Below are positions 938 to 62,155 of a stretch of 64,000 nt of DNA, piece after piece. The stretch comes from a virus. Both the position numbers and the translations under genes were made by a program. Each line of letters starts with the position of its first letter. Within the stretch, counting starts at the first letter, position 1. The stretch spans positions 1 to 64,000 of IMG/VR virus record IMGVR_UViG_3300043446_004613. One strand, given 5' to 3'. The notes below the pieces were generated by a model that was not told the origin of the DNA, ran no database searches, and saw only the letters and a program-made list of their open reading frames with translations.

Positions 938-1282
938 GTGAGCGCGAATATCATCGTAAACCGGCTACTTGAAAGCGATCTCGACGCACCGTCACCGGAC
1001 GTTAGTCCAGCGGAATTGGTCGCACCGAACTATAGACCTAAGCCGCGATCCAACGTCAGCCGGTTTGCAGAACCTTACCTTGAATTGAACGGCAGACTTG
1101 GTGAAGGCAAAGGTTTGACGCTGTCGTCCTATCTGGGCACGCAGCTATCCTTCAGCACCATCGCGAGCTACGGTAAACAGTACAAACTAGCACTTCAGCG
1201 GGCGATGGATGATTACGTCAATACCGGTTTAGCCCGTCAAGGTCGCTCCAGTCGTGGCGGCGTAGCTTACTACCCTGTCTGA
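938..1282 (+). CDS. Tagged protein of unknown function
   Basis: 114 residues from a GTG start; no upstream in-frame start exists because TAA precedes it. The N terminus (residues 2-25) carries the recurrent tag: SANIIVNRLLES, then D-x-D-x-P and an acidic stretch. The remainder (YRPKPRSNVSRF...) is unrecognised and basic. If the tag is a head-targeting propeptide, cleavage after LLE would leave about a 100-residue cargo. Convergent with the gene ending at 1305. Confidence 0.7.
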   Translation: MSANIIVNRLLESDLDAPSPDVSPAELVAPNYRPKPRSNVSRFAEPYLELNGRLGEGKGLTLSSYLGTQLSFSTIASYGKQYKLALQRAMDDYVNTGLARQGRSSRGGVAYYPV

Positions 1283-3315: not shown

Positions 3316-3319
3316 GCGC

Positions 3320-20355: not shown

Positions 20356-21003
20356 ATGAACATTCCGGTCACATACGTACCCGATCCACTCAAAGTGGAC
20401 GGCGGAGGAACGGTAGTGCCTCAAGCGCTGCCGAGCGCAGACATGCCTATCACCGTAATACCTGCGCCGGTCTTGCCTCCCGTGCCGCTTCCGCAGTTCT
20501 CGTGTACGTTGGTACCTGATCCGAACAAAGTCGATGGCGGTGGTATCGTCGAACCGCAGCCCGAACCTGTCTCCAACATTCCGGTGACCTATGTCCCTCC
20601 GCGTTCGACCACACTGCCGACAGTTTACTTCACAGCCGCGCCGACAAGCGGTGAAGCTCCGTTGAGTGTCGTGTTCACAAACGAAAGTACGCTAGGCGTC
20701 TATTTCACGTGGGATTTTGGTGATGGCACAACCAGTAACAGCGTATCGCCGACACACATCTATACCGGAACAGGTACGTACACGGTTGAATTAGCCGGTA
20801 TCGATGCAAGCGGTACGACGTACTACACCCGCGAGAACTACATCGCAGCAGTGAACAGCGCACCGCCAGCCCCGGTTGCTGACTTTACTGCTACGCCGTT
20901 AACCGGCGATGCTCCTTTGAGTGTTACGTTTACCAACCTGAGTACGAACGGAACGTACTTCACATGGGATTTCGGCGACGGCACCATCGTCAATAATCCT
21001 TGA
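20356..21003 (+). CDS. PKD-domain surface protein, N-terminal part
   Basis: 215 residues. A repeated VPDP-x-KVDGGG-x-V segment (8-20 and 53-65) is followed by one complete PKD domain (about 92-160, with FTWDFGDGTTS) and the first half of a second, ending at WDFGDGTIVNNP. The stop TGA at 21001 is followed in the same frame by CTA CGC GCT ACC ATG, and the missing half of the domain begins at 21016. Split or readthrough fibre/adhesin. Confidence 0.75.
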   Translation: MNIPVTYVPDPLKVDGGGTVVPQALPSADMPITVIPAPVLPPVPLPQFSCTLVPDPNKVDGGGIVEPQPEPVSNIPVTYVPPRSTTLPTVYFTAAPTSGEAPLSVVFTNESTLGVYFTWDFGDGTTSNSVSPTHIYTGTGTYTVELAGIDASGTTYYTRENYIAAVNSAPPAPVADFTATPLTGDAPLSVTFTNLSTNGTYFTWDFGDGTIVNNP

Positions 21004-23230: not shown

Positions 23231-23626
23231 TCAAAGGTCACGCTGCCGCCTAACGTCATACACCTCGTAGCTGTACTTGAAACCCATGCGTTCAGCCACT
23301 ACCCACATCGGATCGCAGCTGCCGTTCTTGGAACGTTCGCGCTTGATGTACCCGTTATCTTCCAGCCACTGGGCAGCTGTCCACTGGAACTGATCACCGT
23401 AACCGTATTCCATCGGTGTTGTGTGGACAAGCTTGTCGTTAACGTAGATGTCTGCGACGTGATAGGTGTTGCCATACGTGCGCTGGAACCAGCGCCGACC
23501 GACTACGTGAATGGAGTCGATCTTATGGTGTTTGTTCTCGATCTCGTGATAGATGAACGCCATCGGATCATTCGGATCAAACGAATCATCTTCCAGCAGT
23601 GTTTTGGCAATAGTGCTCGCGTTCAT
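23231..23626 (-). CDS. Tagged protein of unknown function
   Basis: 131 residues. Tag STIAKTLLEDDSFDPNDPMA (4-23), then F-I-Y. The body has Trp/Tyr-rich strands (VVGRRWFQRTYGNTYHVADI) and a helix with QWLEDNGYI, a pattern also seen in the modules of the long polyprotein-like genes. The start follows a TAA immediately. Confidence 0.65.
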   Translation of the reverse strand: MNASTIAKTLLEDDSFDPNDPMAFIYHEIENKHHKIDSIHVVGRRWFQRTYGNTYHVADIYVNDKLVHTTPMEYGYGDQFQWTAAQWLEDNGYIKRERSKNGSCDPMWVVAERMGFKYSYEVYDVRRQRDL

Positions 23627-24624: not shown

Positions 24625-27600
24625 TCACGGCTCAAAACGCATGGCGCTGAGCACTTCATCGTACCATTTGCTGTAATGGATACCGATCCGCTCGATCACT
24701 TTTGCCTCTTCTTCTGGCGGGACACTGCTGGCCGCACAGCGCTCAAGGGCTGAGTCGAGATCACGAAGCATGGCCGCCGCGCTGTTCGGTGTCTCACAGT
24801 TGACGTCCTGAGCCGCGTTGAGCCAAGTCTTGTCGCGATAGTTGTACACCCGCACAACAGCTTCTACAGTGTTTCCGCCAAACAGCCAGAGATGGATGGC
24901 GTGCTGATTTCCGTCCGGCGCTTTGATGCCTTTGATCCAGCTGCGCGTCATTGCCGACTCGGTGTTGTTGAAGATAAAAACTTCATGTTTTTCACCGTTC
25001 TTGGGTACGCTCCAACCAAGCCGCTGAAGCTCTGTCAGCAGCGGATTCGCATCCAAGTTGCCGATAATTCCTTCGGGATCGTCAGGATCAGAAGATTCAG
25101 CTACCGGCCCTTTGGCCAGCGCTTTAGCACGGGCTTCTAGTGCGTCAATGCCGTTGATTAAATCGTAAAATGACAGGCTGTGCTCGTGCTCCATATCGCG
25201 CCAAGCCATACCATCAGCCAGCCAGAACGTGACATCGTAGATCGTATTCGCGTCGTCTGTTGCTATGGAGCCGCGACGGCTGATACCGAGCATTACCTCG
25301 CGCTGACGTCCGCTGAGTTCATTTCGCGGCCCGCAGAATATCTTGTAGATGAGATCAGCTTCGCGGGTGTAGCCGCGCTGTTTTAGCATGTCGCGCAAGT
25401 TCAGTAGGTGCTCAGCCCCCTCAGCAGATGGTTCATCAAATGATTCTGCGTTCTCGACGATGCGCGGTTGCGTCCAACGCTTTATGCAGGCGTTCAATGT
25501 ATCCGCCAGTTGTGGCAGGTCGCAGGTAACTTCAAAATGTGTCGGCATGTACGCCGAGTCGAAGAAGTACGCTAAGTAGATGTGATAGGCGTACTCGCCA
25601 GCCGCTGGTTTTGTGCGGCGGTCACGATCCACGTAAATGTAGCGAGCCGGATCGTTCTTGCCACGGCCCTGATAAATCAGTTTTTTCCACTCAAGCGTAA
25701 AGCGATCATCATAGTAGCGCACCGGCTCGAACCCAAGCCGAGTAAGCAGCGCACTGGCTTCCTCTTCCTGCGAAAATTGCTCCTTGTAGCGTTCAAGGTC
25801 GCCAGTGTCATCGACGTCAGCAGCGCTCTCTTCGACGGCTTCTTCGTAATCTGCCGGGAATAGTTCAGCGGAGCGCTGGTACACGAGCGATCGGATGTGT
25901 TCAGCCTCCGGGCTTTCGTAGGAGATGTCGTTGTTGTCGATGTACTGGGAGGACACTTCAGATGCAAGTTCGTCCGCCCGGCGCGGCGTGAGATCACCGC
26001 GTTTGTTCGCCTGTCGGTCAAATTCAGCAACGGCCTGCTGGGCCAGCAGCTTGTACGCGTTAGCCACTTCGGCTGCGTAGGCATCAACACTGGCCTGTGC
26101 GTCTACATCCTCACTTTCCGTGACGCTCACCTCTGGAGGCACAGTGAAGTACAAACCGAAATCGCCATCGCTGAACGGAGCGTAAAACTCGAATTTACGT
26201 GCTTGAGGGCATGCAGAACGGATAGCCAGTACACCGTCTTTTTTGGCTTTATCCGCAATAGCGTCATACTCTTTGTCCGGCATATCATACGTAAGTTCAA
26301 GCGGACTGTTCCACTCCATAAGATATATCGTGCTGGGAGTCGGGTTGCTTTCACTGTTCGGCGGAAACGCCGCTCGGCAGTAAACATACTCGTAGCCTGC
26401 TTGTTTCAGGTTACCGGCAGCCTCTTTCAGCGAAAATGCAACGGGAAGTTTGTCGATGTAGCCAGCTACATCGTCATCAGGAAGCTCAAAGCTTTCACGA
26501 ACCGGCTTGCGCGGAAAACGGACAAGTTCGTCACGCATGCTCGTGTCCCAGCGGCGAATTTCTTCTTCAGGCTCGTCATGTAAAAAGGCTAGTGACTCGA
26601 TGTCCGTTTCCCACCCGGCATCACGCATTGTCTTGATCCACTTCTGGTGAAACTTAGACTTACTGCCTTCATCCGGTAACGCAGTACCGGTTAGCTTTGT
26701 GGAGGTCTGGTCGGCGAGTTCACCAAGCTTTGCCAGCCATTTCCGGGCTACACCGGCTTTGCGCATCGATTTTGGCACGTACAGGCGGTCTATGTGAAAC
26801 GAGTCTTTGTTCGGTGTACCGCTGATCTTAACCCCGTTAGGCAGCGTCCAGTGATAATCTATCTGCACGGTGCCAGCGTTGTCTATTTCCTCAGCGTCCG
26901 TGCGCGTGGCCATAGCGGACATGGCCTCAATAAAAGGACTCTGGTAAACACTCATCTGGCGCTGAATGAACGGCTCGGGATCATCTTCTGATTCTTTGAT
27001 GTGCGCAACCATGCCGGGATGTTCGTTGAATACATCGGCACGCTTAGACGCGACAGTTGTATTCTGACTGATGAGCCACTCTTTAGGCGGAGGCTCTGAT
27101 GGTTGGAACAGTCGCTCTACATCATCAACATCTGTCTGCGTGAAACGATAAACGCCGATACGTTGGTCAACCGCAAAACCCTTCAGATCAATCATCTCGA
27201 TATTGAAATTAGGATAACGGTCGATTCGATGGGTGATACGTGTCGGGTAATAGTAGCAAACACCTCTACGATCGAGCTTAGGTGCTACGTACCAGCGATT
27301 CAAAAACTTCTGCGCCCGCTTATATTCATCCTTGTTTACGACGTCAACTGGAACCTCTGTATCGACATATTCCTGCGCATTGACGTCATCTTCCTGCGAC
27401 TCGTAGGTATTCACGTAGTTCATCCGAGACTCAGGCGTCAGCTGTGCTTTTGAGATCAGAAGAGAAAAGCCGGTTCCGGTAACATGCTTCCACGGCTCCA
27501 TCTTAATTCTATACGATGTAAGCTTGTGATCGGTACAAAACTTTTCCAGCTGATTGCGGAAAAACTCAGTTTCAAGCGGCTTGCCGTTTTCATCTTCCGC

Positions 27601-28728
27601 CCAGTAGCTGAAACCTTCGACCATAACCCATTCGACATAGCTGCTGACACGCTTGTGCGCCAAGCCGTAGTTGGTCAAGTCGTTGAGCAAGTCACCAAGG
27701 TCATGGACGTTCTCGATGTAAGTGTCCGGCGCGTCCAAATCCGCACTCTCTTGTACCACGTCGTTCGTCATCTCAATGGTGCCTGTGATACCAGTGTACT
27801 CACGGAGCGCCGCACAAAACTTCTTGAAATGCGCCTTACAGGCAGGCATGTCTTCCACAGGCGGCGCTTCGTCCGTCCAGCCCCGGTCAGGCGCGTTTAG
27901 ATAGTAGCCGCCGTAAAGTTTCAATGTCGGCTTAGGGAGCGCACCAATGTCGACATCTTCTGGATACTCAGGAAACTCAACCGTAAAGCGCCAGCCTGAG
28001 TAAGAGTCGTCCTCGTGTCGCACGACATAGCTGTCAAAATCAACGTAATGATCATTCTGACCTGCGAAGGTGCGGGTCAGGATGCTTTTAGGATCGTTGA
28101 TTTCATGCAAAAAGTTGCTCAACTGATTGGGTGTCTTGAAATCCAGCGTATGGCTGTCGACGTAGTCCTGCGCATCGACGTCATCTTCAGACTCGATTAT
28201 GTTAAGCTTGAACCACTCTTTAAGCGCATCCGTGCCGGTAAATTCGATCGACACGTCCAAGACGCGTTTACCAAGCTCGCTGACAAACTGGTAAGGATCA
28301 ATGCGAGGCTTGAAGTCTTTGAAGAACGGCTCCAGTGTACCGCTTGTGGTGCTGAGCCATTCATCAGTGCAGTCGATGATCCGTTGCGCCATCTGGGTAT
28401 TGCGGGCCGGGGCGTCGTTGGATAGGTAAACACTGCATACACGTTCACCACTGTCACCGTGGCCCTCGTCATTTACGTATAGACCGGCGTTGGTCAGCAT
28501 CATGATGACGTTTGTTTCAATATTTTCAACATCGCGGGCCAGCTGATTCCAGTCGACGCCTATCTGCGCCTCAGCAGCGTTTTGTTGAATCGTGTCTTCA
28601 TCTGACGTGTGGATGTGACAGCCAAAGCGGATGCGTGATAGATCGCCGATCCGTGTTTTGGCTTTAAGCCACGACACGTACTGATCAGGATCATCAAAGT
28701 TGTTTACAACATTTCCGCCGTCATCCAT
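24625..28728 (-). CDS. Modular tagged protein, candidate virion polyprotein
   Basis: 1367 residues from ATG 28728 (a TTG at 28737 is possible). Nine copies of the tag core, hydrophobic-x-Glu-Ser then acidic-DDP-x-x-Y/F-I/V-D, occur near residues 182, 330, 446, 582, 748, 874, 970, 1097 and 1214, cutting it into ten modules of about 96-180 residues. Example: VVQESADLDAPDTYIENV. Modules share a helix with L-x-x-L-G-W/F, several strands and a closing helix. One (about 620-712) looks GNAT-like (RLYVPKSMRKAGVARKWLAK). Cleavage after each Glu by a prohead protease would release about ten small proteins; that is inference. Confidence 0.7.
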   Translation of the reverse strand: MDDGGNVVNNFDDPDQYVSWLKAKTRIGDLSRIRFGCHIHTSDEDTIQQNAAEAQIGVDWNQLARDVENIETNVIMMLTNAGLYVNDEGHGDSGERVCSVYLSNDAPARNTQMAQRIIDCTDEWLSTTSGTLEPFFKDFKPRIDPYQFVSELGKRVLDVSIEFTGTDALKEWFKLNIIESEDDVDAQDYVDSHTLDFKTPNQLSNFLHEINDPKSILTRTFAGQNDHYVDFDSYVVRHEDDSYSGWRFTVEFPEYPEDVDIGALPKPTLKLYGGYYLNAPDRGWTDEAPPVEDMPACKAHFKKFCAALREYTGITGTIEMTNDVVQESADLDAPDTYIENVHDLGDLLNDLTNYGLAHKRVSSYVEWVMVEGFSYWAEDENGKPLETEFFRNQLEKFCTDHKLTSYRIKMEPWKHVTGTGFSLLISKAQLTPESRMNYVNTYESQEDDVNAQEYVDTEVPVDVVNKDEYKRAQKFLNRWYVAPKLDRRGVCYYYPTRITHRIDRYPNFNIEMIDLKGFAVDQRIGVYRFTQTDVDDVERLFQPSEPPPKEWLISQNTTVASKRADVFNEHPGMVAHIKESEDDPEPFIQRQMSVYQSPFIEAMSAMATRTDAEEIDNAGTVQIDYHWTLPNGVKISGTPNKDSFHIDRLYVPKSMRKAGVARKWLAKLGELADQTSTKLTGTALPDEGSKSKFHQKWIKTMRDAGWETDIESLAFLHDEPEEEIRRWDTSMRDELVRFPRKPVRESFELPDDDVAGYIDKLPVAFSLKEAAGNLKQAGYEYVYCRAAFPPNSESNPTPSTIYLMEWNSPLELTYDMPDKEYDAIADKAKKDGVLAIRSACPQARKFEFYAPFSDGDFGLYFTVPPEVSVTESEDVDAQASVDAYAAEVANAYKLLAQQAVAEFDRQANKRGDLTPRRADELASEVSSQYIDNNDISYESPEAEHIRSLVYQRSAELFPADYEEAVEESAADVDDTGDLERYKEQFSQEEEASALLTRLGFEPVRYYDDRFTLEWKKLIYQGRGKNDPARYIYVDRDRRTKPAAGEYAYHIYLAYFFDSAYMPTHFEVTCDLPQLADTLNACIKRWTQPRIVENAESFDEPSAEGAEHLLNLRDMLKQRGYTREADLIYKIFCGPRNELSGRQREVMLGISRRGSIATDDANTIYDVTFWLADGMAWRDMEHEHSLSFYDLINGIDALEARAKALAKGPVAESSDPDDPEGIIGNLDANPLLTELQRLGWSVPKNGEKHEVFIFNNTESAMTRSWIKGIKAPDGNQHAIHLWLFGGNTVEAVVRVYNYRDKTWLNAAQDVNCETPNSAAAMLRDLDSALERCAASSVPPEEEAKVIERIGIHYSKWYDEVLSAMRFEP

Positions 28729-28740
28729 AATAAACAAAAG

Positions 28741-29052
28741 TTAGTCCCAAATTGAAGCCATGTTCCGTTTGAGGCGCTTTATGGCGGTGTCCACCTGAAC
28801 CTCGTCATCAAGTTCTTCACAGGCAATGCGGAGCAAGGCGCGGTTGATCACGTGATCGGGAATATTGCCGATCACGGATTGAGACAAAGCTCCGGCCTGT
28901 TGCGCCTGTTCCCGCAGGAATTTGGCATGATCGAGAATATCACGGACATCGGCGATAAGCCACGCGTCATTGGTGAAATGTTCCATGCCAATGGCGCTTG
29001 GGTCATCAAGAGCGTCGTTCTCGACCAGTTTACGGACATATAGCGAACTCAT
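28741..29052 (-). CDS. Tagged helical protein
   Basis: 103 residues. N-terminal tag SSLYVRKLVENDALDDPSAI (2-21), then helical segments (VRDILDHAKFLREQAQQAG; EDEVQVDTAIKRLKRN region). Divergent from the HTH gene at 29067. ATAGTTA lies 4 nt before its ATG. Confidence 0.65.
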   Translation of the reverse strand: MSSLYVRKLVENDALDDPSAIGMEHFTNDAWLIADVRDILDHAKFLREQAQQAGALSQSVIGNIPDHVINRALLRIACEELDDEVQVDTAIKRLKRNMASIWD

Positions 29053-30437: not shown

Positions 30438-30664
30438 TGAAGTGGCCGGAACCAGCCTCATACCAGCTGTTTGATGGTACGAACTGCGGGAATGTGCTCG
30501 TGATCCGTGGCCGGGTAGTTCATACTACCTGTGACGCGTTCAAGCGCTTTTTAGGGCGCAAGTTCGACGCGGTTCCGCTGGAATTCAAAGCGGGTAGTTA
30601 CAACGATGGCTGTCAATCCGAGCAATCTGAAGAAAAGCACGCCGATACCGGAAGACCCAACTGA
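30437..30664 (+). CDS. Hypothetical small protein
   Basis: 75 residues. Strands then a basic helix (VLVIRGRVVHTTCDAFKRFL). The last 20 codons overlap the next gene, which starts at 30606. Unknown; the C-terminal end is less certain. Confidence 0.45.
   Translation: MKWPEPASYQLFDGTNCGNVLVIRGRVVHTTCDAFKRFLGRKFDAVPLEFKAGSYNDGCQSEQSEEKHADTGRPN
30594..30600 (+). promoter_or_regulatory. GTAGTTA start-proximal motif
   Basis: GTAGTTA 5 nt before the ATG at 30606, inside the upstream reading frame. Confidence 0.45.
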
Positions 30665-33503
30665 CATCTCACAAGATGCGTTGGATACGGTATTGGATCG
30701 CGTTACTACCGTATGCTACCCGAAAGGAACTCGGGTTCGTATCTCTTCAAAAGTCCCGTCGCAGCGTCTGCGCGGAAAGACCGGCACAGTTACCGGCGCA
30801 TCCCAAACCATGTGCTGGGTGGCTATCGACGATTTTGTCGCTGCTGGTGACCCCGATCCATTTTACTTCGTGGATTCAGACGTTGAGCCGCTGAACGAAG
30901 CAGAAACTACAGACGCTCCAGAGAACTATTTGCCGAGCAACGATTACATCAGCGTGCTGGGCAACCTCGGCTACAAGTTTAACGGCTGGCGCTGGGAGAA
31001 GCTGCTGCCTTTTGGCCCTGCCACGCTGTTCATTTCGGTCAAAGACAACAGCAGCGAACTGTTTGGTGCTCAGGCTTTCATCGATGTCCGCTACGTCAGA
31101 TACGGCGTGTGTGAACGGGTGCAGAGCATGAGCGTGGATGTCTACGACGTTGTAGACGTGTTGCGCCAGATCGAACAGTTTGCGCTCAGCGGTGATGTTC
31201 AGACCTTTACCGACAAGCTCAAGGCCGCCAAGTTTAGCGACATACCCGTGACGGAACCAAACCGGCTGTTGAATCTGTTTGGCGAGTCGATCATGGAAGC
31301 TATCGACCCGGATGACCCGGAGAGCTACATCGATACGCTAAAGCAGCACGAAAGCGTGATTGATGCTTTCGTGCAGAAGGGCTGCACACTAAGTCGGCGC
31401 ATGTCTGCCGACCGTCCGAGTTATGAACTAGGGCTGATCCACGAACCAGACAAGACAAAGCCTTGGGTCTATTACACCGTGGTGCTTGAACCTGACAGCC
31501 CGACACGGTGGAACGTTTATGCAGGCGGTTACCGAGAATACACTGACTCACCTGATGACACTTACAGTCAAGGTTTTGACATCGACGGCACATGTTCGAT
31601 TGATGTCACTGCCCCGCTTGAGCCGCAGGTAGCCTCAATTCTAGCTGAAATCACAAAGCACGACGGCGAACTCAAGGATCGCGCTGTAGACGAGTCCGCA
31701 CCAGATAATCTCGACGCCACACCGGAGACTATCCAGCACGTCGTTGATACGACAGTCCTGATTCCTGATGAGAGCGATCCAAGTTCAGAAGACTGTCGCG
31801 AGTGCAAGGAACACGGCGGTGCGCCGGAAGGTGACAGACCATTCAAAGGTGATAACCTGTGCTGGGATTGTTACCGGCATCTGTATCCTGAGCCTGATGC
31901 AGAAGATGACGCCGTAGTTGAGAGTACTGAAACATGCCCTGATTGTGCCGGATCGGACGGTCGGCAAATCAATGGTACGTGGTACGTCAGCAGTCCTTGT
32001 GATGACTGCGGTGGTAGCGGCTTTGATGCGTCTGTCGATGGAGAATGTGCCCACTGTAAAGGTGTAGGTGAGCTACCCTGCTGTCGCTGTGAAGGTACAG
32101 GCAGCATAGCAGAATCAGTCGAGAAAGACCCCGACGTTGTAGATTACACGACGTACGCAGATAGCACACCCGACTTCAACTTTGTCCAGCTGATTGATCC
32201 GCAGAAAGTGCGCAAGCTGCTGCTCTCTTTTGGTTACCGGGCCGTCAACCTATCGCGCAGTCCGCGCACAACCGGTCTATGTGGGAGCGCGATCCCGAGG
32301 ACGCAAGAACGCCAGCAGGCGCTACAACGTGAAGAGCATCACGAAGAAGCGTACTTTCGCCATCACCTTGAACAAGGGTTGTTGAAACTTTACCCCAATC
32401 AGGCCGAGGAAGTATACAAGCCATTTGTCGGTAACATCTACAAGCTGTACCACAGTGTCATCATACATGTCTGGTGCATGGCGGAAAAACAGGCGATCTA
32501 CTTCGACATCCTGCCGGTCGACTCCAACATCTGGAAAAAAGGTAAGCGCACGCTTCCGTCTGATGACGTAAGTCGCTACGTGCGTGAAACTGAATCGGAG
32601 GACGATCCGCAGACTTACGTCGATGCCGCTAAACCGAACGTATACACTCTCTACGGACAAGTGGAGAACTACGACGCGCCGGTTGCACTGGGCGTGTTTA
32701 CCAGCTTACAGGCTGCGGTCGACCGTGCTCGCGAGCGGGATGCCTACGCAGAATTCGCTACCGTATGGGCGGACGAAGAGGTCATCAACTCGCTTGAAGA
32801 CTGGGATAAGCCGACCGTAAAAGCGGTACGCTACAGCGGCGTCAAGTACCTCATCACTCCAAACTGGCAAGTGATCCGCTCAGAAACACCTGACCGTATC
32901 ATCAGCGGTGTGCGCTACAGCAATCCTCCCGTGCAGGAAAGTGCAGACGATAACGTTGATCTCGACGCAGAGCAGTACGTTCAAACCACGGCAAATATAG
33001 ATGAATTCCTATCTGGCCTAGGCTGGTCACGGGATGCCGGATCATCGTACTACCGCAAACGGTTCCAGCTGCCTACCATTTACCGACTCGGTGGCCTTGT
33101 TTTTACAGCTATTGAGTTCATTCTAGCTGTTGATCTGGAAAACGATCTGGCTGCACCGTGGTTGACCCTCTACTTTGACAACGAGCAGGGGAATAATCTC
33201 ATGTCGCGTTCGTGGCGACTTCCGATGCAGGAAGTGAAGGGTGAAACTGAAGACGATGAGGATTGGTTAAACCGTGATGTCACGCTTCGGCGCTTCGCAC
33301 ACGCGCTTCCAAGTGTCATCGCTAACGTTGACTGGCCGCGTACGAATAAGCGGCTTGCCCGCGAGATCGAACAGGACATCCAGCCAACCGCAGCTGTCAT
33401 GGGACGTCACCTTACGCTTAAAGCCAGCAGCCGCGTGGAGCAGGCTGTGCAAGAACTAATCGATTGCCTCAGCCACAAGGCAAAAACACTCTACGGTACT
33501 TAG
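30606..33503 (+). CDS. Modular tagged protein with DnaJ-like zinc module
   Basis: 965 residues. Tag-core sites lie near 227 (FGESIMEAIDPDDPESYID), 363 (VDESAPDN), 439, 503 (IAESVEKDPD), 663 (ETESEDDPQTYVDA) and 778 (VQESADDNVD). They separate modules: a KOW/SH3-like start (TRVRISSKV...GKTGTVTG), LGY/LGW strand modules at about 115-190 and 797-910, and a Cys-rich DnaJ-type module (about 397-498, repeated CxxCxG). Same organisation as the leftward modular proteins; candidate virion polyprotein. Confidence 0.7.
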   Translation: MAVNPSNLKKSTPIPEDPTDISQDALDTVLDRVTTVCYPKGTRVRISSKVPSQRLRGKTGTVTGASQTMCWVAIDDFVAAGDPDPFYFVDSDVEPLNEAETTDAPENYLPSNDYISVLGNLGYKFNGWRWEKLLPFGPATLFISVKDNSSELFGAQAFIDVRYVRYGVCERVQSMSVDVYDVVDVLRQIEQFALSGDVQTFTDKLKAAKFSDIPVTEPNRLLNLFGESIMEAIDPDDPESYIDTLKQHESVIDAFVQKGCTLSRRMSADRPSYELGLIHEPDKTKPWVYYTVVLEPDSPTRWNVYAGGYREYTDSPDDTYSQGFDIDGTCSIDVTAPLEPQVASILAEITKHDGELKDRAVDESAPDNLDATPETIQHVVDTTVLIPDESDPSSEDCRECKEHGGAPEGDRPFKGDNLCWDCYRHLYPEPDAEDDAVVESTETCPDCAGSDGRQINGTWYVSSPCDDCGGSGFDASVDGECAHCKGVGELPCCRCEGTGSIAESVEKDPDVVDYTTYADSTPDFNFVQLIDPQKVRKLLLSFGYRAVNLSRSPRTTGLCGSAIPRTQERQQALQREEHHEEAYFRHHLEQGLLKLYPNQAEEVYKPFVGNIYKLYHSVIIHVWCMAEKQAIYFDILPVDSNIWKKGKRTLPSDDVSRYVRETESEDDPQTYVDAAKPNVYTLYGQVENYDAPVALGVFTSLQAAVDRARERDAYAEFATVWADEEVINSLEDWDKPTVKAVRYSGVKYLITPNWQVIRSETPDRIISGVRYSNPPVQESADDNVDLDAEQYVQTTANIDEFLSGLGWSRDAGSSYYRKRFQLPTIYRLGGLVFTAIEFILAVDLENDLAAPWLTLYFDNEQGNNLMSRSWRLPMQEVKGETEDDEDWLNRDVTLRRFAHALPSVIANVDWPRTNKRLAREIEQDIQPTAAVMGRHLTLKASSRVEQAVQELIDCLSHKAKTLYGT
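33496..33502 (+). promoter_or_regulatory. GTACTTA start-proximal motif
   Basis: GTACTTA 4 nt before the ATG at 33507, overlapping the upstream stop. Confidence 0.45.
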
Positions 33504-33506: not shown

Positions 33507-34220
33507 ATGCAGCTGAGCGAAGGTTTTAAGCAGCCAGAGAATTTTGACCCCGTAGCGGACGGTTCCGGGTGGGTCATGTATGCCGGTGCGAATGATTGGG
33601 AAGTCGGCACCACGGCAGTCAGCGTCATTTTTCCGAGCGACGAACAGAATCAGCGTGTCTGGATGACCGTCAAGCAGCGCTTCGACGGCGATGCCGAAGC
33701 ACCGGTTAAAGAGCATCCCGCGATCAAGGAGCATGGCGATAAGGCATGGCGTACGTGGAAGCGCGAAGCGATTGCCGCCTACCGTAACAAGAACAACGGG
33801 ACGCGCACATGGATGGACGCCTTCAAAGCGGCGTTGAAAACCAAGGCCATGAGTCCTTACGTCAAGGACTGGGGTATTGAGCGTACCAAGTGGGATAACG
33901 TCAAGGAGCACGCAGGGGTGATCGTCGCCAAGCTTTTGGAATCGGATGTCGATGATCCGTCGCCTAACCCCGACGAGATTGACCGACTTCTGCCGACCAA
34001 GACTTTCACCATGAAAGGCAGTAGCTTGCTGCATGCTCCCGGCCTGATTGATTTTGCCAAACGGCGCTGGCGCGAGCGCAGCCGTAAAGCTAAGCAGAAC
34101 GCGCTCGACATCTTGAAGGCATGGCAGCTACCACAAGAGGACGCCGAAGCGATTCTCAACGGAAAAGCAACGATAGAGACGCAAGGCGACGATGCCGTCG
34201 TGACCATTCAAAAGTATTAA
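33507..34220 (+). CDS. Protein with internal tag
   Basis: 237 residues. The first about 125 residues form one domain (GWVMYAGANDWEVGTTAVSV). A complete tag lies at about 133-152 (VIVAKLLESDVDDPSPNPDE). The C-terminal domain is basic and helical (FAKRRWRERSRKAKQNALDI). The tag between two domains suggests cleavage into two proteins. Unrecognised families. Confidence 0.6.
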   Translation: MQLSEGFKQPENFDPVADGSGWVMYAGANDWEVGTTAVSVIFPSDEQNQRVWMTVKQRFDGDAEAPVKEHPAIKEHGDKAWRTWKREAIAAYRNKNNGTRTWMDAFKAALKTKAMSPYVKDWGIERTKWDNVKEHAGVIVAKLLESDVDDPSPNPDEIDRLLPTKTFTMKGSSLLHAPGLIDFAKRRWRERSRKAKQNALDILKAWQLPQEDAEAILNGKATIETQGDDAVVTIQKY

Positions 34221-35807: not shown

Positions 35808-36468
35808 CTTTATTCCTGATTACGGCATTACAGGCGTCGTAGTTGCACCGTACCTTTTTGTAAAGCGCTGCGGGCTTGAACCCAGTGCCGGTCGAAATCC
35901 AAGTTTCATAGTAGCTGCGGGTAACCGTATCGGGCCGTTCGGGCGCTTGAATGGTTCGGATGTAGCTTGCACTAGCCCACCAGAAGTTACCGGAAAAGAA
36001 CTGACCGTTGAAATTTATGCCGCAGCAGTTGGCAGCACTTAACCGGCGCAGGCACGTTTGATAATCGGTAAGGCAGGCAAAATTCATCAGATCGCGCCAG
36101 CCTTTGACGCCAGCAGCACTAGGACGTGTTAAACCTGTCTCAGACACTACACCTTTTGAGTGGAAATATAGAACACGAGCGTCATGTAGTAAGCAGTAGT
36201 CGTGAAGCAGCTTTAGCGTAGGGTACTCGAACTTGTTGCCTCTACCAGAGTGTATACGCAATTTATCGTAGCCGCTAAACATCTGGCCGAATTCCACTAA
36301 AGCAGAGGCGTCTTTTGCCTGAACCCCGCAGACTACTGTCGAAGCTTCGTCATACAGACCGCTCTCTTGCATTAAACGGAACTGTTCAGAGACTATTTCT
36401 TTCCAGTTGTTTACAAGATACACGTGGTAGAAAACAGCAATAGGCTCATGTATACTCAGGCTTATCAT
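35761..36468 (-). CDS. Glycosyltransferase-like protein
   Basis: 235 residues. Elements of a family of putative glycosyltransferases: IAVFYHVYLVNNWKEIVSEQ at the N terminus, ARVLYFHSKGV, KGWRDLMNFACL, FSGNFWWASASYI and a late ETWI. The reaction is not established for this family. Start lies inside the end of the upstream modular gene (23-nt overlap). Confidence 0.6.
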   Translation of the reverse strand: MISLSIHEPIAVFYHVYLVNNWKEIVSEQFRLMQESGLYDEASTVVCGVQAKDASALVEFGQMFSGYDKLRIHSGRGNKFEYPTLKLLHDYCLLHDARVLYFHSKGVVSETGLTRPSAAGVKGWRDLMNFACLTDYQTCLRRLSAANCCGINFNGQFFSGNFWWASASYIRTIQAPERPDTVTRSYYETWISTGTGFKPAALYKKVRCNYDACNAVIRNKAIWLQVPGGLQAEEP

Positions 36469-38419
36469 CTGGAAAATTCTTCAGATTTACGGAAAGGTTA
36501 ACGTACCAACGCGGGTACGTCTTGTCTGCTGCTTCACCTACCCAAAGTTTGGAAGACGTGACTTTCATCACCCCGTTTTCTTCCAGCCATTGGATAACGA
36601 ACGCTTTGAATCGCCGGGCAAAGTCGTCCTTATCGTACGGAAAATAGAGGGTCGCTGTGACTAAGCCACCCTTGCCGCTGATGTCGATCGCATCGTAACG
36701 TACGCCGGTTGGGTGCCACTTCCAGAGCGCTTCGCAGACGTCTTTATCCCAGTCGGTTTGAGCCACCACCTGCGAGATCACGCTATCTGGATCGTCAAGG
36801 CTCTCTCCCATCGCTAGTGCCGACTTGAACGTATTGAACTCAATCGTTGGATTCTTACGCAGAACCCCGATGATCTTCACGCTACCCATCTGAACAAATC
36901 CTTTGTCCTCTAGCCACTGTTCAACGTAGTCAACAAGTTGCTTACGCCAGTCAATAAAACCGTAGCGACCATTCTGCATACCAGTCAAACGCGGCAAGCG
37001 TAGGCTTTCGTCGCGCTGGCATTGAAGTGTCCAATGGTACGCCCCTTTTAGAGCCATGAACGGTTCGCGATGGACTGAAACGCTACTGTAAAACGGCGTG
37101 AGCATCCGGCGCAGTTCACCTTCCAAGCGCTCGTACTTGGGCTGTTTGCTGTCATCTTCGGGATGAATGTAGGCAGTGACATCGTCAACATCTTCGGACT
37201 CGTTCACGTAAGGAAAAGAGTCTTCAAATTTAGAGACATCGACGTAAAGATAGATTGGAGCTTCCAGCTGGCTTGCTTGTACAAGAGTGGTCGCTGCTAT
37301 GCCGTTTGTGCGTAAGGCGCTGAAGACTGCTGGACTTTTAATGTTCAGCGGAAACCGGTACGTATTGAGCGGCATCATGCTGGTTTGCTCGCGCTTGCGC
37401 TTGTACAGCATCGCATGTCGAAAAGCGTCGGCCTGCTGATAAGGCGTCAGAGCTACCCACAGCGCAGCCGCGTCATTAACGGTAGTGATTACATTAGACT
37501 GATTAGGGTTTATAGCGCGGAAATCGATGCGGATTTGACCCCGAAAGCTGTTCAAAAAACTACCCAGAGTTGCATCCGGTGAATCAACATCCAAACTCTC
37601 GTAATTGTAACCTAAATACTTATCGGGCGTCAGCTTCAGCTTACGCTTGCTTTCAAGCTCGCGGCGGATAAAGGCCCGAACTTGATCCATTGCGTTGTCC
37701 GCAACTTTCCAAACGTCAATACCGCCATACAGATCAAGGCCGCCCGGTGACCACCAAGGCCCGCCGTCCGTAGGCCGTTCCATAAGTGTGGACGCGTAGT
37801 AGCTGGATACAAACTGACCTTCATCGAATTTCGTGATGTCGTAAAAATCGACAAGAGGCTTAGGTTTGCCTTCGGCGTAGCTATCTTTCCAATGGAGCAC
37901 AACACGGAATTTCCGCTTATCGTACGCTGTGCCGGGTGCTTCGTTCGTCACTTCGATGGAAGGTTCGTAATCTTCCAGAAAAGCACTTGGATCATCCAAG
38001 TCCTCCGACTCGCGCACCGGACGACCTGTTTTAGCGACGTGGATCGCTAGGATGAACTCAAGGGCTTCGTCAAACGACTTGCACGCCTTGGATTCACTGT
38101 CGCGGAATCCGGCAACAGCCACCCACGGGTAATCCTGCCAGTTTTTACGCGCCTCTTCGGACGGAGCATCCGCAGCATCTGTCGTGTAAATTTCACCAAT
38201 GAACGTTTGGTAACTTTGCGTACCAAATGTTATCTCGTTTGGCTTACCGGCAGGAGCAGGTGTTCCGGGTACCTTTCTGTAGACGTTCCAGTGCTGACCT
38301 TCCTGTTCTAATTCAATGTCTGGATAGCGCGTTTTGGCCAAACGATCGATTTCGCCCAACGGGTCAAAATCATCGTCGGCGCTCTCAAGGATGCGGTTTG
38401 CAAGTATACGTCCAGTCAC
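36446..38419 (-). CDS. Modular tagged protein, regular 130-residue modules
   Basis: 657 residues from a GTG at 38419. Five tag sites at about 12 (ANRILESADDDFDPLGEIDR), 137 (PVRESEDLDDPSAFLED), 274 (NYESLDVDSPDATLG), 407 (VNESEDVDDVTAYI) and 539 (MGESLDDPDSVI), spaced 125-137 residues. Each tag is followed by a similar alpha/beta module, so a leader plus five equal-sized products would result from cleavage. The N-terminal tag makes it a good candidate for processing. Confidence 0.7.
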   Translation of the reverse strand: MTGRILANRILESADDDFDPLGEIDRLAKTRYPDIELEQEGQHWNVYRKVPGTPAPAGKPNEITFGTQSYQTFIGEIYTTDAADAPSEEARKNWQDYPWVAVAGFRDSESKACKSFDEALEFILAIHVAKTGRPVRESEDLDDPSAFLEDYEPSIEVTNEAPGTAYDKRKFRVVLHWKDSYAEGKPKPLVDFYDITKFDEGQFVSSYYASTLMERPTDGGPWWSPGGLDLYGGIDVWKVADNAMDQVRAFIRRELESKRKLKLTPDKYLGYNYESLDVDSPDATLGSFLNSFRGQIRIDFRAINPNQSNVITTVNDAAALWVALTPYQQADAFRHAMLYKRKREQTSMMPLNTYRFPLNIKSPAVFSALRTNGIAATTLVQASQLEAPIYLYVDVSKFEDSFPYVNESEDVDDVTAYIHPEDDSKQPKYERLEGELRRMLTPFYSSVSVHREPFMALKGAYHWTLQCQRDESLRLPRLTGMQNGRYGFIDWRKQLVDYVEQWLEDKGFVQMGSVKIIGVLRKNPTIEFNTFKSALAMGESLDDPDSVISQVVAQTDWDKDVCEALWKWHPTGVRYDAIDISGKGGLVTATLYFPYDKDDFARRFKAFVIQWLEENGVMKVTSSKLWVGEAADKTYPRWYVNLSVNLKNFPDDKPEYT

Positions 38420-38448: not shown

Positions 38449-39003
38449 ATGAATAAGAAAGCAGCCCAAATTGTAAGCAACCTTCTTGAGTACGGTGTCG
38501 ATCCCGACGCGCCCCGTCCGGGCGGCCCGGAAGACCCGTGGCGTCAGTCCAGCGGCCCGCTGCCGCCGTTCACCGTAAAAGCCCGCCCCGGTCACGAAGA
38601 TGAAGTGATTGACGAGATTCCAGCAGAAGAAGATGAAGCTCCGGTCAAGCCTGCACCAAAGCCTAACAAGCACTTGGGGCGCTTCAACATCACTTTTCCG
38701 CCGTCAATGGAATCGGTGCCAAGTGCCCGCTCTTTGCTGCATGAACTGGGCGGCCACTACTGCACCACGTGCCGCAAGCCGACGGAAGGCTCATTCGACC
38801 CCAAGAGCAAAAAGGTCGTCTGTAAACACTGCGGTAACGAACTTGTCTATCCCAAGTCTTCGTCACTTCGTTCACGCGAGGTCGTTCACGGAAAATCTGC
38901 CAATGAATCGTTGAAGAAAGCCTGCTGGAAAGGTTACGAGGCTGTCGGCACCAAAAAGAAAGGCGGGCGCACGGTGCCAAACTGCGTCCCGAAAAAGAAA
39001 TGA
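38449..39003 (+). CDS. Tagged protein with zinc ribbon
   Basis: 184 residues. Tag KAAQIVSNLLEYGVDPDAP (4-22), Pro/Glu-rich linker, a zinc ribbon (CTTC...CKHCG, about 105-127), then ESLKKACWKGYEAVGTKKKG near the C terminus, a motif common at the ends of phage proteins. Function unknown; a cargo domain is inferred. Confidence 0.65.
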   Translation: MNKKAAQIVSNLLEYGVDPDAPRPGGPEDPWRQSSGPLPPFTVKARPGHEDEVIDEIPAEEDEAPVKPAPKPNKHLGRFNITFPPSMESVPSARSLLHELGGHYCTTCRKPTEGSFDPKSKKVVCKHCGNELVYPKSSSLRSREVVHGKSANESLKKACWKGYEAVGTKKKGGRTVPNCVPKKK

Positions 39004-39254: not shown

Positions 39255-40486
39255 TGGAAACGCGCCACCAGCGCCTCATGGCGATATTGACGCCACTTCA
39301 GCGAGTCATGCTCGATCTGGACGTGGCCGTCACTGGTGTACCGATAGAGCAGGCCGTCACGCAATACCACCATTACCCGAAAACGGTTGAAGACTGGCTC
39401 AACGAACCCGGCGGTAACCCGGAGTGGTACTTGTCTGACGGAGGGTATAGCCGGATAATCTGGATGCCCTACGCGGATAACGTGAACGACAACCACCTAT
39501 TTTTGACAGACAACAGCACGACTAAAGCAAAAGCTCGCTGGGAGAACGCGCTGACTCAACGCAAAGCTGCCTTAAACCTGCTTCACGCTGAACTAGGCAG
39601 ACTAGAAGAAAGCAGTGATGACGATCCAAATACTTTCCTAACGCATTACCGGCCACTTCCGACGGTCAGGCTGCATACCGGCGAGGTTGTTCCAAAGTAC
39701 TGGCGGTGCTTAGACACCATTTGGTACTGCGGTGGTCAGGATGACGATGACTGTATACGTGAAGATGAAATCGTAACTGTCGATCCTAGTGAATATGAAA
39801 GTTTCAGGTTCAAGGCCGACGAGTTGGCGTTCAACGAGCACGCTTCACGCTACGGCCCGTGGAACCGGGATGACTTTGAACCGCTGACGTTGGAAGAGAT
39901 TGACGCTATGAACTTAAAAGAGTCAACTGAACGTCCTGAATTTAAGCCCGGTGCTTTTGGTCGCCCCAAGCGCAAAGACCCGCGCTATCCGACTGATTTG
40001 CGCTATCCTAACGATCCGCACGCACAGGTAGTTCATGAGCTTGGCGGCAAGCTGGTTTACGCGCCGCTTCCGTCACGCGCCAAGTGGAACGCCATGCTTG
40101 CAGCCTACGCACCCGGCTGTGGCTCACCAACACCCTATCCCGGCACCGGCGGCACCGCCCCATGCGGTTCTAAGGTGGAAGGTAAACTGTTTCTGTGCCC
40201 GCACTGTGAGTCATCAAACCTAACAACGGAATCGATCACGAGCGTGCTCTGCGAAGATGGCGCTTCACCTTTCAGCAAGCAGCGCGTCAAGCTCCAGTAC
40301 CGGCCCTATACGTTCGGAGAGGATTGGAAATGGTTTTGGGTGCTACTGCCGGAAGACGGACGGGCTGCGCTGGCTAACGGCGAAGCTGACACGCGGGCAG
40401 CTGCCTCAGTGCAGGCACGGCTAAAGGCACGTCAACTGCGTATGATCGTTGATAAGGTCGAGGTTGTTTTCTCGCACAAAGACTAA
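39251..40486 (+). CDS. Tag-containing protein with Cys motifs
   Basis: 411 residues. Tag core about residue 119 (LEESSDDDPNTFLTHY) and a weaker NLKESTERPEF at about 225. Cys pairs in WRCLDTIWYCGGQDDDDC and in a C-terminal ribbon (CGSPTPYPGTGGTAPCG, FLCPHCESS) suggest metal binding. C-terminal helix rich in Ala/Arg. Unknown families; a multi-domain tagged protein. Confidence 0.55.
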   Translation: MMETRHQRLMAILTPLQRVMLDLDVAVTGVPIEQAVTQYHHYPKTVEDWLNEPGGNPEWYLSDGGYSRIIWMPYADNVNDNHLFLTDNSTTKAKARWENALTQRKAALNLLHAELGRLEESSDDDPNTFLTHYRPLPTVRLHTGEVVPKYWRCLDTIWYCGGQDDDDCIREDEIVTVDPSEYESFRFKADELAFNEHASRYGPWNRDDFEPLTLEEIDAMNLKESTERPEFKPGAFGRPKRKDPRYPTDLRYPNDPHAQVVHELGGKLVYAPLPSRAKWNAMLAAYAPGCGSPTPYPGTGGTAPCGSKVEGKLFLCPHCESSNLTTESITSVLCEDGASPFSKQRVKLQYRPYTFGEDWKWFWVLLPEDGRAALANGEADTRAAASVQARLKARQLRMIVDKVEVVFSHKD

Positions 40487-41316: not shown

Positions 41317-42618
41317 CTATTGTTGATTAGACGGCACTTCGCAGCGGTGTGACCCGGTTTCTATGTCATCGTGTGAAATTAGCTTACCACAATTTTCGCA
41401 CGGATACGTAGGTGTTGAGTCGAGATGTCTGTACTCCAGCTTATGTCCGTTAGGGCACTCGTAGCAGTCGAGATCGTCAGGGTCACCGGCTTCAATACCG
41501 TCGAAACCTGCGCGTAGATAGCTGAAATCATTCAGCAAGCTACCTGTTTCGCCGCAAGCAGGGCAGCGAACAATAGGAAAACTGACACCACCGTCTACGT
41601 CTGGCTCAACAAATTCCAGTCTATGCGGAACTTCAAGCGTCCTTACGTCAATATTTTCAATATCACGCTCGCTAGGATCGTCAATATCTTCCAACAAGCC
41701 TGAACGGTAGACAGCTTCTTTCAATTTTGTATACGTCGCCGCATCAAAAGCGTCGCCAACATCAAGGGTAAGCGCTGCTACCGGCATTTTTGAGCGAAGA
41801 TGATCCAAAATATCCAGAGGGACGCCGCGCAATCGTAGAGCATCCCAGTCAATGTCTGCTCCGGCTTCGAGCACGTGTCGGTTTTCCTTCAGTGCCGGTA
41901 GAATAAGGCTTTCATAGCGCCACATTGCGTCTGAAACGCGCAAAAGGCACTCTAAAACCGGGGTAAGCTGCCGTCGATTGTGCGCTCTTTCCAGAGCCGA
42001 GCTAGTGCTCTCAAAAATTTTAGCCGTGATGCTTGCTGCTTTAGGTAGATTTTCGGCTAGGCGTTTGGCAAAGGCAGGTGCCGCAGCGCCGGTTAACCGG
42101 ATATGGTGACCGTAAACTGCATCTGGAGCTTGAAGAACGTTGCTTGTGGGGTAACCAAGTGCTTCGGCTTCCTCAATCAACTCTTCAACGATGCCGCCGA
42201 CGTCGTGTACACGGCTCGCTGCTGCCGCGATGGCGAGGCGGTCGGTACCGTTCAAGCTGCCCAGTGCGTTTACAGGCGTCCATTCGACCTTAGTGACGTC
42301 ACCACCACCCGGTTTGGCCTTGGTGTTAGGTTCAACGATGGCGTAGTAGAGCGTGACCGGCAGTTTCCGCGCCGCATGGCTGGCCAAAAAGAGCGGTTGA
42401 GGGTCGACATCCATGCCTGTCTCTTCTCTGACTTCACGCTTGCAGGATTCGACACCTGATTCGGCACCGTTGGCATGACCTCCCGGTATGCTCCAACGTC
42501 CGATTTCATCGGCAACCAGTGCAACTTCCAGTCTGTCGTTTGTTTTGCGCAGGACAACGCATAGGTACGATTGATCGTCCGTATCGGTCATCTTCTGGAT
42601 CAAAGCTTCTGCGCTCAT
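41317..42618 (-). CDS. Nudix hydrolase fused to helical domain and zinc ribbons
   Basis: 433 residues. A complete Nudix box at 47-69 (G-x5-E-x7-REVREETGMD) indicates hydrolysis of a nucleoside diphosphate linked to another moiety. A helical middle (about 160-310) follows. LLEDIDDPSERDIENID is tag-like. Two zinc ribbons (CPACG..CYEC, CENCG..C) make the C terminus. Far longer than a normal 150-residue Nudix enzyme. If the tag is cut, the ribbons are released. Confidence 0.75.
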   Translation of the reverse strand: MSAEALIQKMTDTDDQSYLCVVLRKTNDRLEVALVADEIGRWSIPGGHANGAESGVESCKREVREETGMDVDPQPLFLASHAARKLPVTLYYAIVEPNTKAKPGGGDVTKVEWTPVNALGSLNGTDRLAIAAAASRVHDVGGIVEELIEEAEALGYPTSNVLQAPDAVYGHHIRLTGAAAPAFAKRLAENLPKAASITAKIFESTSSALERAHNRRQLTPVLECLLRVSDAMWRYESLILPALKENRHVLEAGADIDWDALRLRGVPLDILDHLRSKMPVAALTLDVGDAFDAATYTKLKEAVYRSGLLEDIDDPSERDIENIDVRTLEVPHRLEFVEPDVDGGVSFPIVRCPACGETGSLLNDFSYLRAGFDGIEAGDPDDLDCYECPNGHKLEYRHLDSTPTYPCENCGKLISHDDIETGSHRCEVPSNQQ

Positions 42619-47322: not shown

Positions 47323-48438
47323 TTAAACAGCAGGCGGTCGCTTCACGATCGCGTTCCAAATTTGCTTTTCCTGCTCTTCGGTAAAGCCGTGCAGGTGGTA
47401 CGCTAACTCTGTCTCCACCCCCGTGCGGTAATCCTGACTTACGCCGTCGGAATACCATACGCCGACGTGAAAGTGACTGGATGACTGGCGCGTCGCGCAT
47501 TCTTTCTTTAAGAACTTGATCGCTTTATCGGCGGCAGTGATACCTTCAGAATAATCAAATTCATCCGGCTCCATGCTGACACCTTCCTCGTCTATCCAAC
47601 CCGTTTCTTCATAATCTCCGTTCGCCGCACTTTCGGGGCTTACTTTATAGTACGAAATAGTGATACGCGGGCCGGGTAAATCTGGCATGCTGGCGACAAA
47701 CTCAGCCGGGTCGTCGGGATCAGCGCTCTCGCCGATAAATGAATCGACATGCCAGCTTGAAGCCAGTCCGCGCAGCGGCTCACACAGACGCATGAAGTCA
47801 TCTAGGTACGCCTGACGGGATTTGCGCCGCTTCATCATAACACATACCTGTTTGGCAACAGCGTAGACGGCGTCCCGACGCGGGATGTAGTCCGCATCGC
47901 TCTCGAACGGCACTATGACAACAGCGTCACCGTAGTATCCGACCGTGAAGATCAATTTCAATTCGCCACCCGCGACATAGTCACGTGGATTACCGGTATT
48001 ATGATTCGTGTGGGACGAAAGCCGGAACTCGTTGTAGCGCGTACCGTAGTCAATGAGCAGCCGCCAGCTTTCGCTTCCGTAGTGCCCGCGTGAGTATTCT
48101 TCCTCCTCCATACCCCAGTTGGAAGGTAGTTCTAGGTCGTGAATATAGTCAATCGGGCTGACGTCTTCTTCCGACTCGCCAAGGTTATTCGGATGCAGCG
48201 GGTCAAACCAGATGCCGCAGTCGCCGCAATCAACCAAGCCTTCATCATCCGGCTCGGTCACCTTAGTGCTCTTGCATGCCGGGCAGTGACCGGGAAAAAT
48301 CCGGTCAAGGGCGGCCTGCGGATCGAACGCATCGACCGCGTTGTCGAGCAAACTGCGCACAACGTCGCGAGCTTCAGCAATCGTCACCGAACGCTGAATC
48401 GAAGCTAGAAAATCGAGATTGGCAGGTGTCTTAGACAT
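47323..48438 (-). CDS. Tagged modular protein with zinc ribbon
   Basis: 371 residues. Tag-like start (EARDVVRSLLDNAVDAFDPQ, about 19-38), zinc ribbon CPACK...CGDCG (about 53-76), tag NLGESEEDVSPIDYIHDLEL (about 86), a module, then FIGESADPDDPAEFVASM (about 230) and a last module. Same logic as the long modular genes. Overlaps the baseplate gene by 8 nt. Confidence 0.65.
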   Translation of the reverse strand: MSKTPANLDFLASIQRSVTIAEARDVVRSLLDNAVDAFDPQAALDRIFPGHCPACKSTKVTEPDDEGLVDCGDCGIWFDPLHPNNLGESEEDVSPIDYIHDLELPSNWGMEEEEYSRGHYGSESWRLLIDYGTRYNEFRLSSHTNHNTGNPRDYVAGGELKLIFTVGYYGDAVVIVPFESDADYIPRRDAVYAVAKQVCVMMKRRKSRQAYLDDFMRLCEPLRGLASSWHVDSFIGESADPDDPAEFVASMPDLPGPRITISYYKVSPESAANGDYEETGWIDEEGVSMEPDEFDYSEGITAADKAIKFLKKECATRQSSSHFHVGVWYSDGVSQDYRTGVETELAYHLHGFTEEQEKQIWNAIVKRPPAV

Positions 48439-61327: not shown

Positions 61328-62155
61328 CTAACTACGTATGGCCGATAATATTTTAATCACCCGGTCGATAATGTCCGCATCACCCGAGGTGGCGTAATCA
61401 TCTGCGTAGAGGACGTCGCAGATACGGTTATAGGCTGCCGTGGTCAGGCGACGCTCACCGTTTCGAGCAGGATATTCCGGCGAATTGGTGTAGTACTCCA
61501 GTTCGCGCAGGCGCTCGGCAATACGGCCCAGTCCGGCGACAGCATCGTCACGTCGATCGAGCGTGGATTGCCGACTTAAACGGCGCAGCTTTCGGGCAAT
61601 GACTTTCAAAAGCTGGATTATTTCCTGCCGAGCTTCGGCGTTATTCAGCGCTATTGCGTTCCAGCTTTCCGCGTTTCTTTTGGCTACGGAATCAGCAAAG
61701 TCACTTACGTAGTTCTCAGCGTCCACTTCATCTTCCAACAAGGTATTAGCCAATGACTCGACGTTGAAACGTTTACGTATGCCAGAAACGTGCTCCTGCT
61801 CTTTGGCAATCTCCATATCGCGACGCTCCGCGTATTTTTGGGCTAAGCGCTGGATAGCGGTTTTTATCGTAGCCTGTATACCGGCGGGCAGCTTGGCGGC
61901 ATGCAGCTTGCCGCCGATAAGACCGACGAAAGCTTCGTAAGCTTGCTCCGGCTCCAGTTCAAGGATGCGTTCAACAGTGGCCGGTTTAACTTCGACCTGC
62001 TTGCTTCCGAGATAGTTGTACAGCGCCTGTAGCACATTATCCGGGCGATCATCACGATCCAGCGCCTGTTTGAGCGCAAGGTACTGTGGCGTCCAAATAC
62101 CTGTTGGATTTGTCGGGCCGGACAAATCGCTAAAATTGGCAGCAAAAGCTTTCAT
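61328..62155 (-). CDS. Helical protein with internal tag
   Basis: 275 residues. Helical N-terminal domain (about 20-120), a full tag NVESLANTLLEDEVDAENYV (131-150), then a second helical domain (AIALNNAEARQEIIQLLKVI...). Two-domain cargo separated by a tag, like gene 33507-34220. Preceded by GTAGTTA plus 6 nt. Confidence 0.65.
   Translation of the reverse strand: MKAFAANFSDLSGPTNPTGIWTPQYLALKQALDRDDRPDNVLQALYNYLGSKQVEVKPATVERILELEPEQAYEAFVGLIGGKLHAAKLPAGIQATIKTAIQRLAQKYAERRDMEIAKEQEHVSGIRKRFNVESLANTLLEDEVDAENYVSDFADSVAKRNAESWNAIALNNAEARQEIIQLLKVIARKLRRLSRQSTLDRRDDAVAGLGRIAERLRELEYYTNSPEYPARNGERRLTTAAYNRICDVLYADDYATSGDADIIDRVIKILSAIRS
61329..61335 (-). promoter_or_regulatory. GTAGTTA start-proximal motif
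   Basis: GTAGTTA 7 nt before the ATG at 61321, made from the last codons of the upstream gene. Confidence 0.5.

Follow-up and report, generated by a model that had tools for sequence, protein, structure and literature searches.

Bipartite tags divide putative head-cargo polyproteins in a lineage of uncultivated T4-type giant phages

Why should one phage protein carry nine variants of a single short acidic motif at its internal joints? The question is raised by open reading frame (ORF) A, which lies in a 64,000-nucleotide stretch (the window) covering positions 1 to 64,000 of the 211-kb virus record IMGVR_UViG_3300043446_004613 and encodes a chain of ten modules between nine tags. A first-pass annotation had read this chain as a virion polyprotein, matured in the prohead into about ten internal proteins. 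The analysis reported here, for which genes were called in the window and in 80 kb from the remainder of the genome, suggests that ORF A, two further long ORFs (B and C) and several shorter ones are probably head-cargo polyproteins, cut by the prohead protease after bipartite tags. ORF A (lengths in amino acids, aa) and its tags are as follows, with an arrow at the predicted cut.

24625..28728, minus strand: ORF A, 1367 aa, ten modules between nine tags
28147..28200, minus strand: tag A1, IIE↓SEDDVDAQDYVDSHT
27703..27756, minus strand: tag A2, VQE↓SADLDAPDTYIENVH
27355..27408, minus strand: tag A3, TYE↓SQEDDVNAQEYVDTE
26947..27000, minus strand: tag A4, IKE↓SEDDPEPFIQRQMSV
26449..26502, minus strand: tag A5, VRE↓SFELPDDDVAGYIDK
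26071..26124, minus strand: tag A6, VTE↓SEDVDAQASVDAYAA
25783..25836, minus strand: tag A7, VEE↓SAADVDDTGDLERYK
25402..25455, minus strand: tag A8, (IVE↓)NAE↓SFDEPSAEGAEHLL, the most degenerate of the nine
25051..25104, minus strand: tag A9, VAE↓SSDPDDPEGIIGNLD

ORF A measures 1367 aa from the ATG at 28728 and 1370 aa from a TTG at 28737, the start on which the first-pass numbering was based; in the 1367-aa numbering, the glutamates at P1, immediately before the cuts, are residues 179, 327, 443, 579, 745, 871, 967, 1094 and 1211. The tags have the form [VI]xE↓S-acidic-D[PA]xx[YF][IV]. All nine sites that had been listed are present, and the [VI]xES core ascribed to them is accurate except at 443 (TYES) and near 1094 (NAES/IVEN). 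Under a fixed rule ([VILMF]xE[SAND], then at least three acidic residues in eight), ORF A holds 8 sites, compared with a mean of 1.44 in composition-preserving shuffles (2000 shuffles, maximum 6); across 148 proteins from the window and the 107-147 kb region, the rule finds 42 sites versus 13.7 in shuffles (maximum 22). A stricter two-part pattern, applied to 193 proteins, gave 12 versus 1.3 (maximum 4; 200 shuffles). As a whole protein, ORF A has no Pfam or PHROG match.

Tags also occur in ORFs B and C, as had been claimed, and in five further ORFs of the window that the earlier reading had passed over (the last five below).

30606..33503, plus strand: ORF B, 965 aa, about seven tags, P1 Glu at 98, 231, 363, 439, 503, 663 and 778
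36446..38419, minus strand: ORF C, 657 aa, N-terminal leader tag MTGRILANRILE↓SADDDFDP and internal tags at 137, 274, 407 and 539
39308..40486, plus strand: ORF D, tag at 101, LEE↓SSDDDPNTFLTHY
41317..42618, minus strand: ORF E, NUDIX module (PF00293, 39.8 bits), then a tag at 310, then a zinc module
47323..48438, minus strand: ORF F, 371 aa, tags at 88 and 237
33507..34220, plus strand: ORF G, internal full-length leader tag IVAKLLE↓SDVDDPSP at 145
61328..62155, minus strand: ORF H, 275 aa, tag at 141

The element is not confined to chains. Many small ORFs, in this phage and in its relatives, begin with a hydrophobic leader, MxAxxIVxxLLE↓, and continue into the same acidic box; in the window these include the following.

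23231..23626, minus strand: 131-aa free-standing protein, leader tag MNASTIAKTLLE↓DDSFDPNDPMAFI
938..1282, plus strand: 114-aa free-standing protein, leader tag MSANIIVNRLLE↓SDLDAP
38449..39003, plus strand: 184-aa free-standing protein, leader tag MNKKAAQIVSNLLE↓YGVDPDAP
28741..29052, minus strand: 103-aa ORF, leader tag MSSLYVRKLVE↓NDALDDPSA, in frame with ORF A with one TAA between them

Another small protein carries MLSAAFIVKRLLE↓NDDDDIGRYIDAA. The tag system is present in the relatives G001, G003, G004 and G009, all uncultivated T4-type giant phages, and N-terminal leader tags exceed their frequency in shuffled sequences in this phage (14 versus 2.3), in G001 (21 versus 3.6) and in G009 (11 versus 1.8). 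Lengths fit as well: the median is 131 for modules and 144 for free tagged proteins. ORF C has a full leader tag first and internal tags after it, and the N-terminal and internal forms are therefore the same element. At genome positions 131524-132500 (L004), two adjacent genes have near-identical leaders (MLSAAFIVNRLLE and MLSAAFIVKRLLE) and different bodies; this pair is one leader on two cargoes. The TAA at 28741-28743, between the 103-aa ORF and ORF A, is also found in L002, an identical contig that bears a different IMG/VR number; the gene may have been split here, translation may restart in a coupled manner at TTG 28737, or the stop may be read through.

In T4, the prohead protease cuts after [LI]xE in gp23 and in the scaffold (into many pieces), and it also cuts internal proteins where their 10-residue capsid-targeting sequence ends (PMC9026906). 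At genome positions 127514-129178, a T4 gp21-type protease is continuous with a scaffold-like region, and the gene for a gp23-type major capsid protein (MCP; PF07068, 106.8 bits) lies next to it. A prohead protease of family S21 had been anticipated, and a genome lacking such a gene would have told against the first-pass reading; the protease is there, and the S21 label is replaced by S77 (PF03420 Peptidase_S77, 64.7 bits against a cut-off of 27; phrog_207, 110.6 bits). By protease and capsid, the phage belongs to the T4-type (gp21/gp23) head system. The scaffold part holds 3-12 [VILM]xE[SA] sites, compared with about 1-2 after shuffling (33 sequences), and an [LM]xE near residue 73 of the MCP, its predicted cleavage site, is found in 43/43 aligned sequences. 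Tagged small genes stand on both sides of the protease/MCP pair; in the relatives' homologues of some of these the leader ends in Glu, and in those of one gene mostly in Asp, a residue that in T4 stops cutting at P1, not targeting (PMC9026906).

For ORFs of the window other than A, and in the relatives, tags coincide with the ends of independent proteins. Module 3 of ORF F begins 3 residues past its tag and corresponds to an entire free leader-tagged protein of G001 (E 4e-34), while module 1 weakly matches another free tagged protein of that phage (E 0.002); module 1 of ORF H is a free G001 protein (E 6e-17), the match stopping 5 aa before the tag. G001 has the zinc module of ORF E too, likewise placed after a tag, within another kind of multi-tag protein (E 4e-15). 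G009, with an MCP of 83% identity, has long tagged proteins of its own (1190, 1509 and 1145 aa), each carrying about 4-8 tags; a C-terminal module of G009 matches free tagged proteins in G001, G003 and G004, and a second module corresponds to a free protein in the present phage and in G001. The 1145-aa protein contains an internal HExxH metalloprotease module ending in KYAYQYAQQLPE↓SVEDD, a free homologue in L045 ends at the same point (RYAYAYAQKLPG, then a stop), and a paralogous module forms the C-terminus of the 1190-aa protein. In a formal test, 4/4 usable boundaries lay within 26 aa of a tag, with 2.0 expected; the boundary evidence owes its strength to how close the ends lie to the tags (3, 5 and 6 aa, with exact agreement for the metalloprotease module), not to the number of cases. 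A free metalloprotease-like protein of G001 (L069/L070, gene 87879-88517 of the joined stretch) ends in a leader and cut site, AQRIVTNLLES followed by a stop, as if the next module had been lost through a stop.

The two halves of the tag behave differently. In N-terminal tags selected blind to P1, that position is Glu in 26, Asp in 1 and another residue in 7; such a ratio of Glu to Asp in an acidic context points to a Glu-specific step. The box, by contrast, comes in dialects: D[PA]xx[YF][IV] in this phage and G001, [FV][DE]xKDL in G009, where nearly all of the internal KDL boxes listed are preceded by xE. For internal tags, the ratio of DPxxYI-type to KDL-type boxes is 13 : 0 here and 2 : 6 for G009; N-terminal tags give 3 : 0 and 0 : 6, respectively, one dialect being common to both kinds of tag within a phage. 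A homologous module takes on the dialect of its phage (LVE↓SLDDDDESIKDILGG in G009 versus LLE↓ADPDEVDPQHYVDAV in G001). This rewriting from phage to phage argues against a neutral linker, and something phage-specific probably reads the box. Several long proteins start with the box alone, with neither leader nor Glu (ORF A, MDDGGNVVNNFDDPDQYVSWL; G001, MDDVNPRQYLSDV; G009, MQLENLDDDVSVKDLADY and MALGDFETKDLMDDF), which suggests, short of proof, that the box remains as a signal after maturation and that a Glu site is required only if other residues lie ahead of the box.

These features bear on the alternative that fares best, namely that the fused modules are packaged together in a single chain, and that the uncut tags are head-targeting sites or flexible linkers left over from fusion. 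The tags are indeed acidic and linker-like, and PMC5512222 describes phage polyvalent proteins of 2-15 domains and the N4 vRNAP, which is packaged unprocessed. A linker, however, explains neither the preference for Glu over Asp at P1 (26:1) nor a [VIL]xE↓S site common to the scaffold, the dialects are rewritten in each phage, and a capsid protease of matching specificity is present; we consider this alternative unlikely. Rather less likely still is that the tag is a binding motif for a function outside the head, such as localization in the infected cell, and that its likeness to a protease site is incidental. Such a motif would account for a conserved, phage-specific downstream box and for proteins that begin with the box alone, and the case for a head location of the tagged proteins is itself indirect. 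It would not account for the tagged genes that flank the protease and MCP, for the leaders kept by the relatives' homologues, or for a nearly invariant Glu site that is common to the scaffold.

Expansion of ORFs A, B and C by duplication of one ancestral module, which the first-pass annotation had proposed in taking their modules to be related, is very improbable: the tags do recur at fairly even spacing, and one case of paralogous modules was seen, a metalloprotease pair in two G009 polyproteins, but the modules of ORFs A, B and C show no detectable similarity to one another beyond the tags (phmmer, all modules), and the recognizable modules in tagged proteins are of different kinds. The data point instead to distinct small genes that were joined and rearranged, a tag staying at every junction. 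Among the domains seen in tagged proteins of the lineage are NUDIX, 2H phosphoesterase (2'-5' RNA ligase superfamily), phage lysozyme, thymidylate kinase and HExxH metalloprotease. Most ORF A modules have no recognizable domain, and there are sub-threshold hints of a DnaJ-type zinc module in ORF B (at about 440-487; PF00684, 18.8 bits, below cut-off) and of a GNAT in ORF A:

26494..26991, minus strand: module A5, GNAT-like (weak), Acetyltransf_10 E 0.017, below cut-off

A single-sequence structure model of this module has low confidence (predicted local distance difference test, pLDDT, 59), and GNATs make up most of its weak matches in the PDB, the best of them at E 0.028. Phage-head effectors are discussed in connection with host take-over and counter-defense (PMC5512222, PMC9503650), roles that the predicted domains of the tagged proteins would fit. 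A leader-tagged protein at L003:2515-3867 (genome 109515-110867) has a C-terminal phage lysozyme domain (PF00959, 43 bits), and the module ahead of that domain is free-standing in G004.

The prohead-protease polyprotein is better supported than these alternatives, not proven. In the mechanism that we propose, each module would start with a bipartite tag made of a cut site, [VIL]xE↓S, and an acidic box, whereas in free-standing proteins an LLE↓ site would lie behind a hydrophobic leader of 10-14 residues, like the T4 capsid-targeting sequence. Tagged proteins and polyproteins would join the prohead core during assembly, and the phage's own S77 (gp21-type) protease would cut after each Glu, leaving on the mature N-terminus the box, whose end reads D[PA]xx[YF][IV] or, in a relative, KDL. 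ORF A would thereby yield about ten small proteins, packed with the DNA and probably ejected with it. The earlier proposal of maturation in the prohead is partly supported, by the protease, by the tags at the relatives' gene ends and by the same tags at the head of free proteins; cleavage, head location, ejection and the targeting half of the tag are what we infer.

Several points weigh against this mechanism. A T4-like N-terminal leader of about 10-20 aa that ends in [LI]xE is present in many small ORFs, in ORF C and in homologues; ORF A has none at its own N-terminus, starting directly with its box, and is for that reason not classed as a T4-type internal protein. Val at P3, common at internal sites, falls outside the T4 [LI]xE rule. 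The formal boundary test comprises four cases, and because homologues of its modules are found only in an identical contig, the module boundaries of ORF A are drawn by analogy with the other ORFs. The suggested targeting role derives from likeness to T4, and cleavage and virion location are deduced from sequence rather than from proteomics.

The closest parallels are the T4 internal proteins IPI, IPII, IPIII and Alt, in which varied cargo stands behind a common, short, hydrophobic N-terminal leader ending in [LI]xE↓, with a gp21-type protease and a gp23-type capsid encoded in one genome (PMC9026906). Here, by contrast, polyproteins string the tagged modules together, the cut is followed by a conserved box that differs between phages, and P3 is often Val at internal sites. 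The phiKZ-like phages and SPN3US are likewise giant phages with many head proteins, a short motif cut after Glu and several cuts per precursor; their motif, however, is S/A-x-E, the additional cuts described lie within propeptides instead of separating one mature protein from another, and there is no repeated tag (PMC5694885, PMC10052503). Polyvalent proteins of phages and conjugative elements, chains of many unrelated domains proposed to be injected with DNA, may offer a further parallel, but the sections cited of PMC5512222 propose release through embedded peptidase domains and describe no repeated tag for a separate prohead protease; no embedded self-release peptidase was found with Pfam in ORFs A, B and C, the HExxH module being seen in G009 polyproteins only. 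Polyproteins of eukaryotic RNA viruses share the use of one chain, a virus protease and repeated short sites; ours belong to a DNA phage and would be head cargo, and the likeness is one of analogy, not of common descent. The system may be pictured, by analogy, as T4 capsid targeting combined with polyprotein processing in the style of RNA viruses.

An MCP search returned 56 contigs at 60-95% identity from IMG/VR and, from cultured phages, no match above about 33% identity, so that the lineage lacks a close cultured member in the collection searched. No homologue of ORF A was found in cultured phages or in 20 related records; its sole IMG/VR match is the identical contig (L002), which was also the only return for ORF B, ORF C and the GNAT-like module searched singly. 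The tag, searched as a DNA pattern in IMG/VR, gave a single match (L005), and its consensus gave best matches of only E 2 and E 9 among cultured phages. Sampled stretches of G005, G013 and G012 show little or no tag system. The idea that tagged genes are more variable than untagged ones was not established: in sampled stretches, relatives were found for 10/17 tagged and 105/169 untagged genes, no overall difference, and for proteins of at least 250 aa for 4/7 tagged (protease excluded) and 41/47 untagged.

Elsewhere in the window, a short terminal stretch of a conserved 881-aa protein (43755-46400) matches repeats of the ORF at 20356-21003 (E 5e-7) and may be repeat material of the PKD type from proteins on the virion surface, and N-termini encoded at 2566-4048 resemble those of glycosyltransferases, judged by sequence alone.

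On balance, though with less assurance than for the ORFs themselves, we favor a view in which the lineage uses its capsid-maturation protease for polyproteins, with dozens of cargo proteins carried singly or in chains of up to about ten, a retained tag half read by a phage-specific partner, and genes that swap, fuse and split provided that they adopt the local dialect. In T4, a few internal proteins are packaged by means of a targeting peptide that can be removed; here, if this is true, there would be a general cargo system in which any gene given the tag is loaded and the capsid protease frees modules from long chains, so that a complete set of proteins could reach the virion from a single gene. 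The literature searched yielded no description of such a polyprotein strategy in DNA phages. Two questions would become testable, namely what recognizes a capsid-targeting sequence and why the residues downstream of the cut are retained, and the tag would offer a sequence rule for predicting head cargo from metagenomes, including likely host-takeover and anti-defense proteins that have no recognizable domain.

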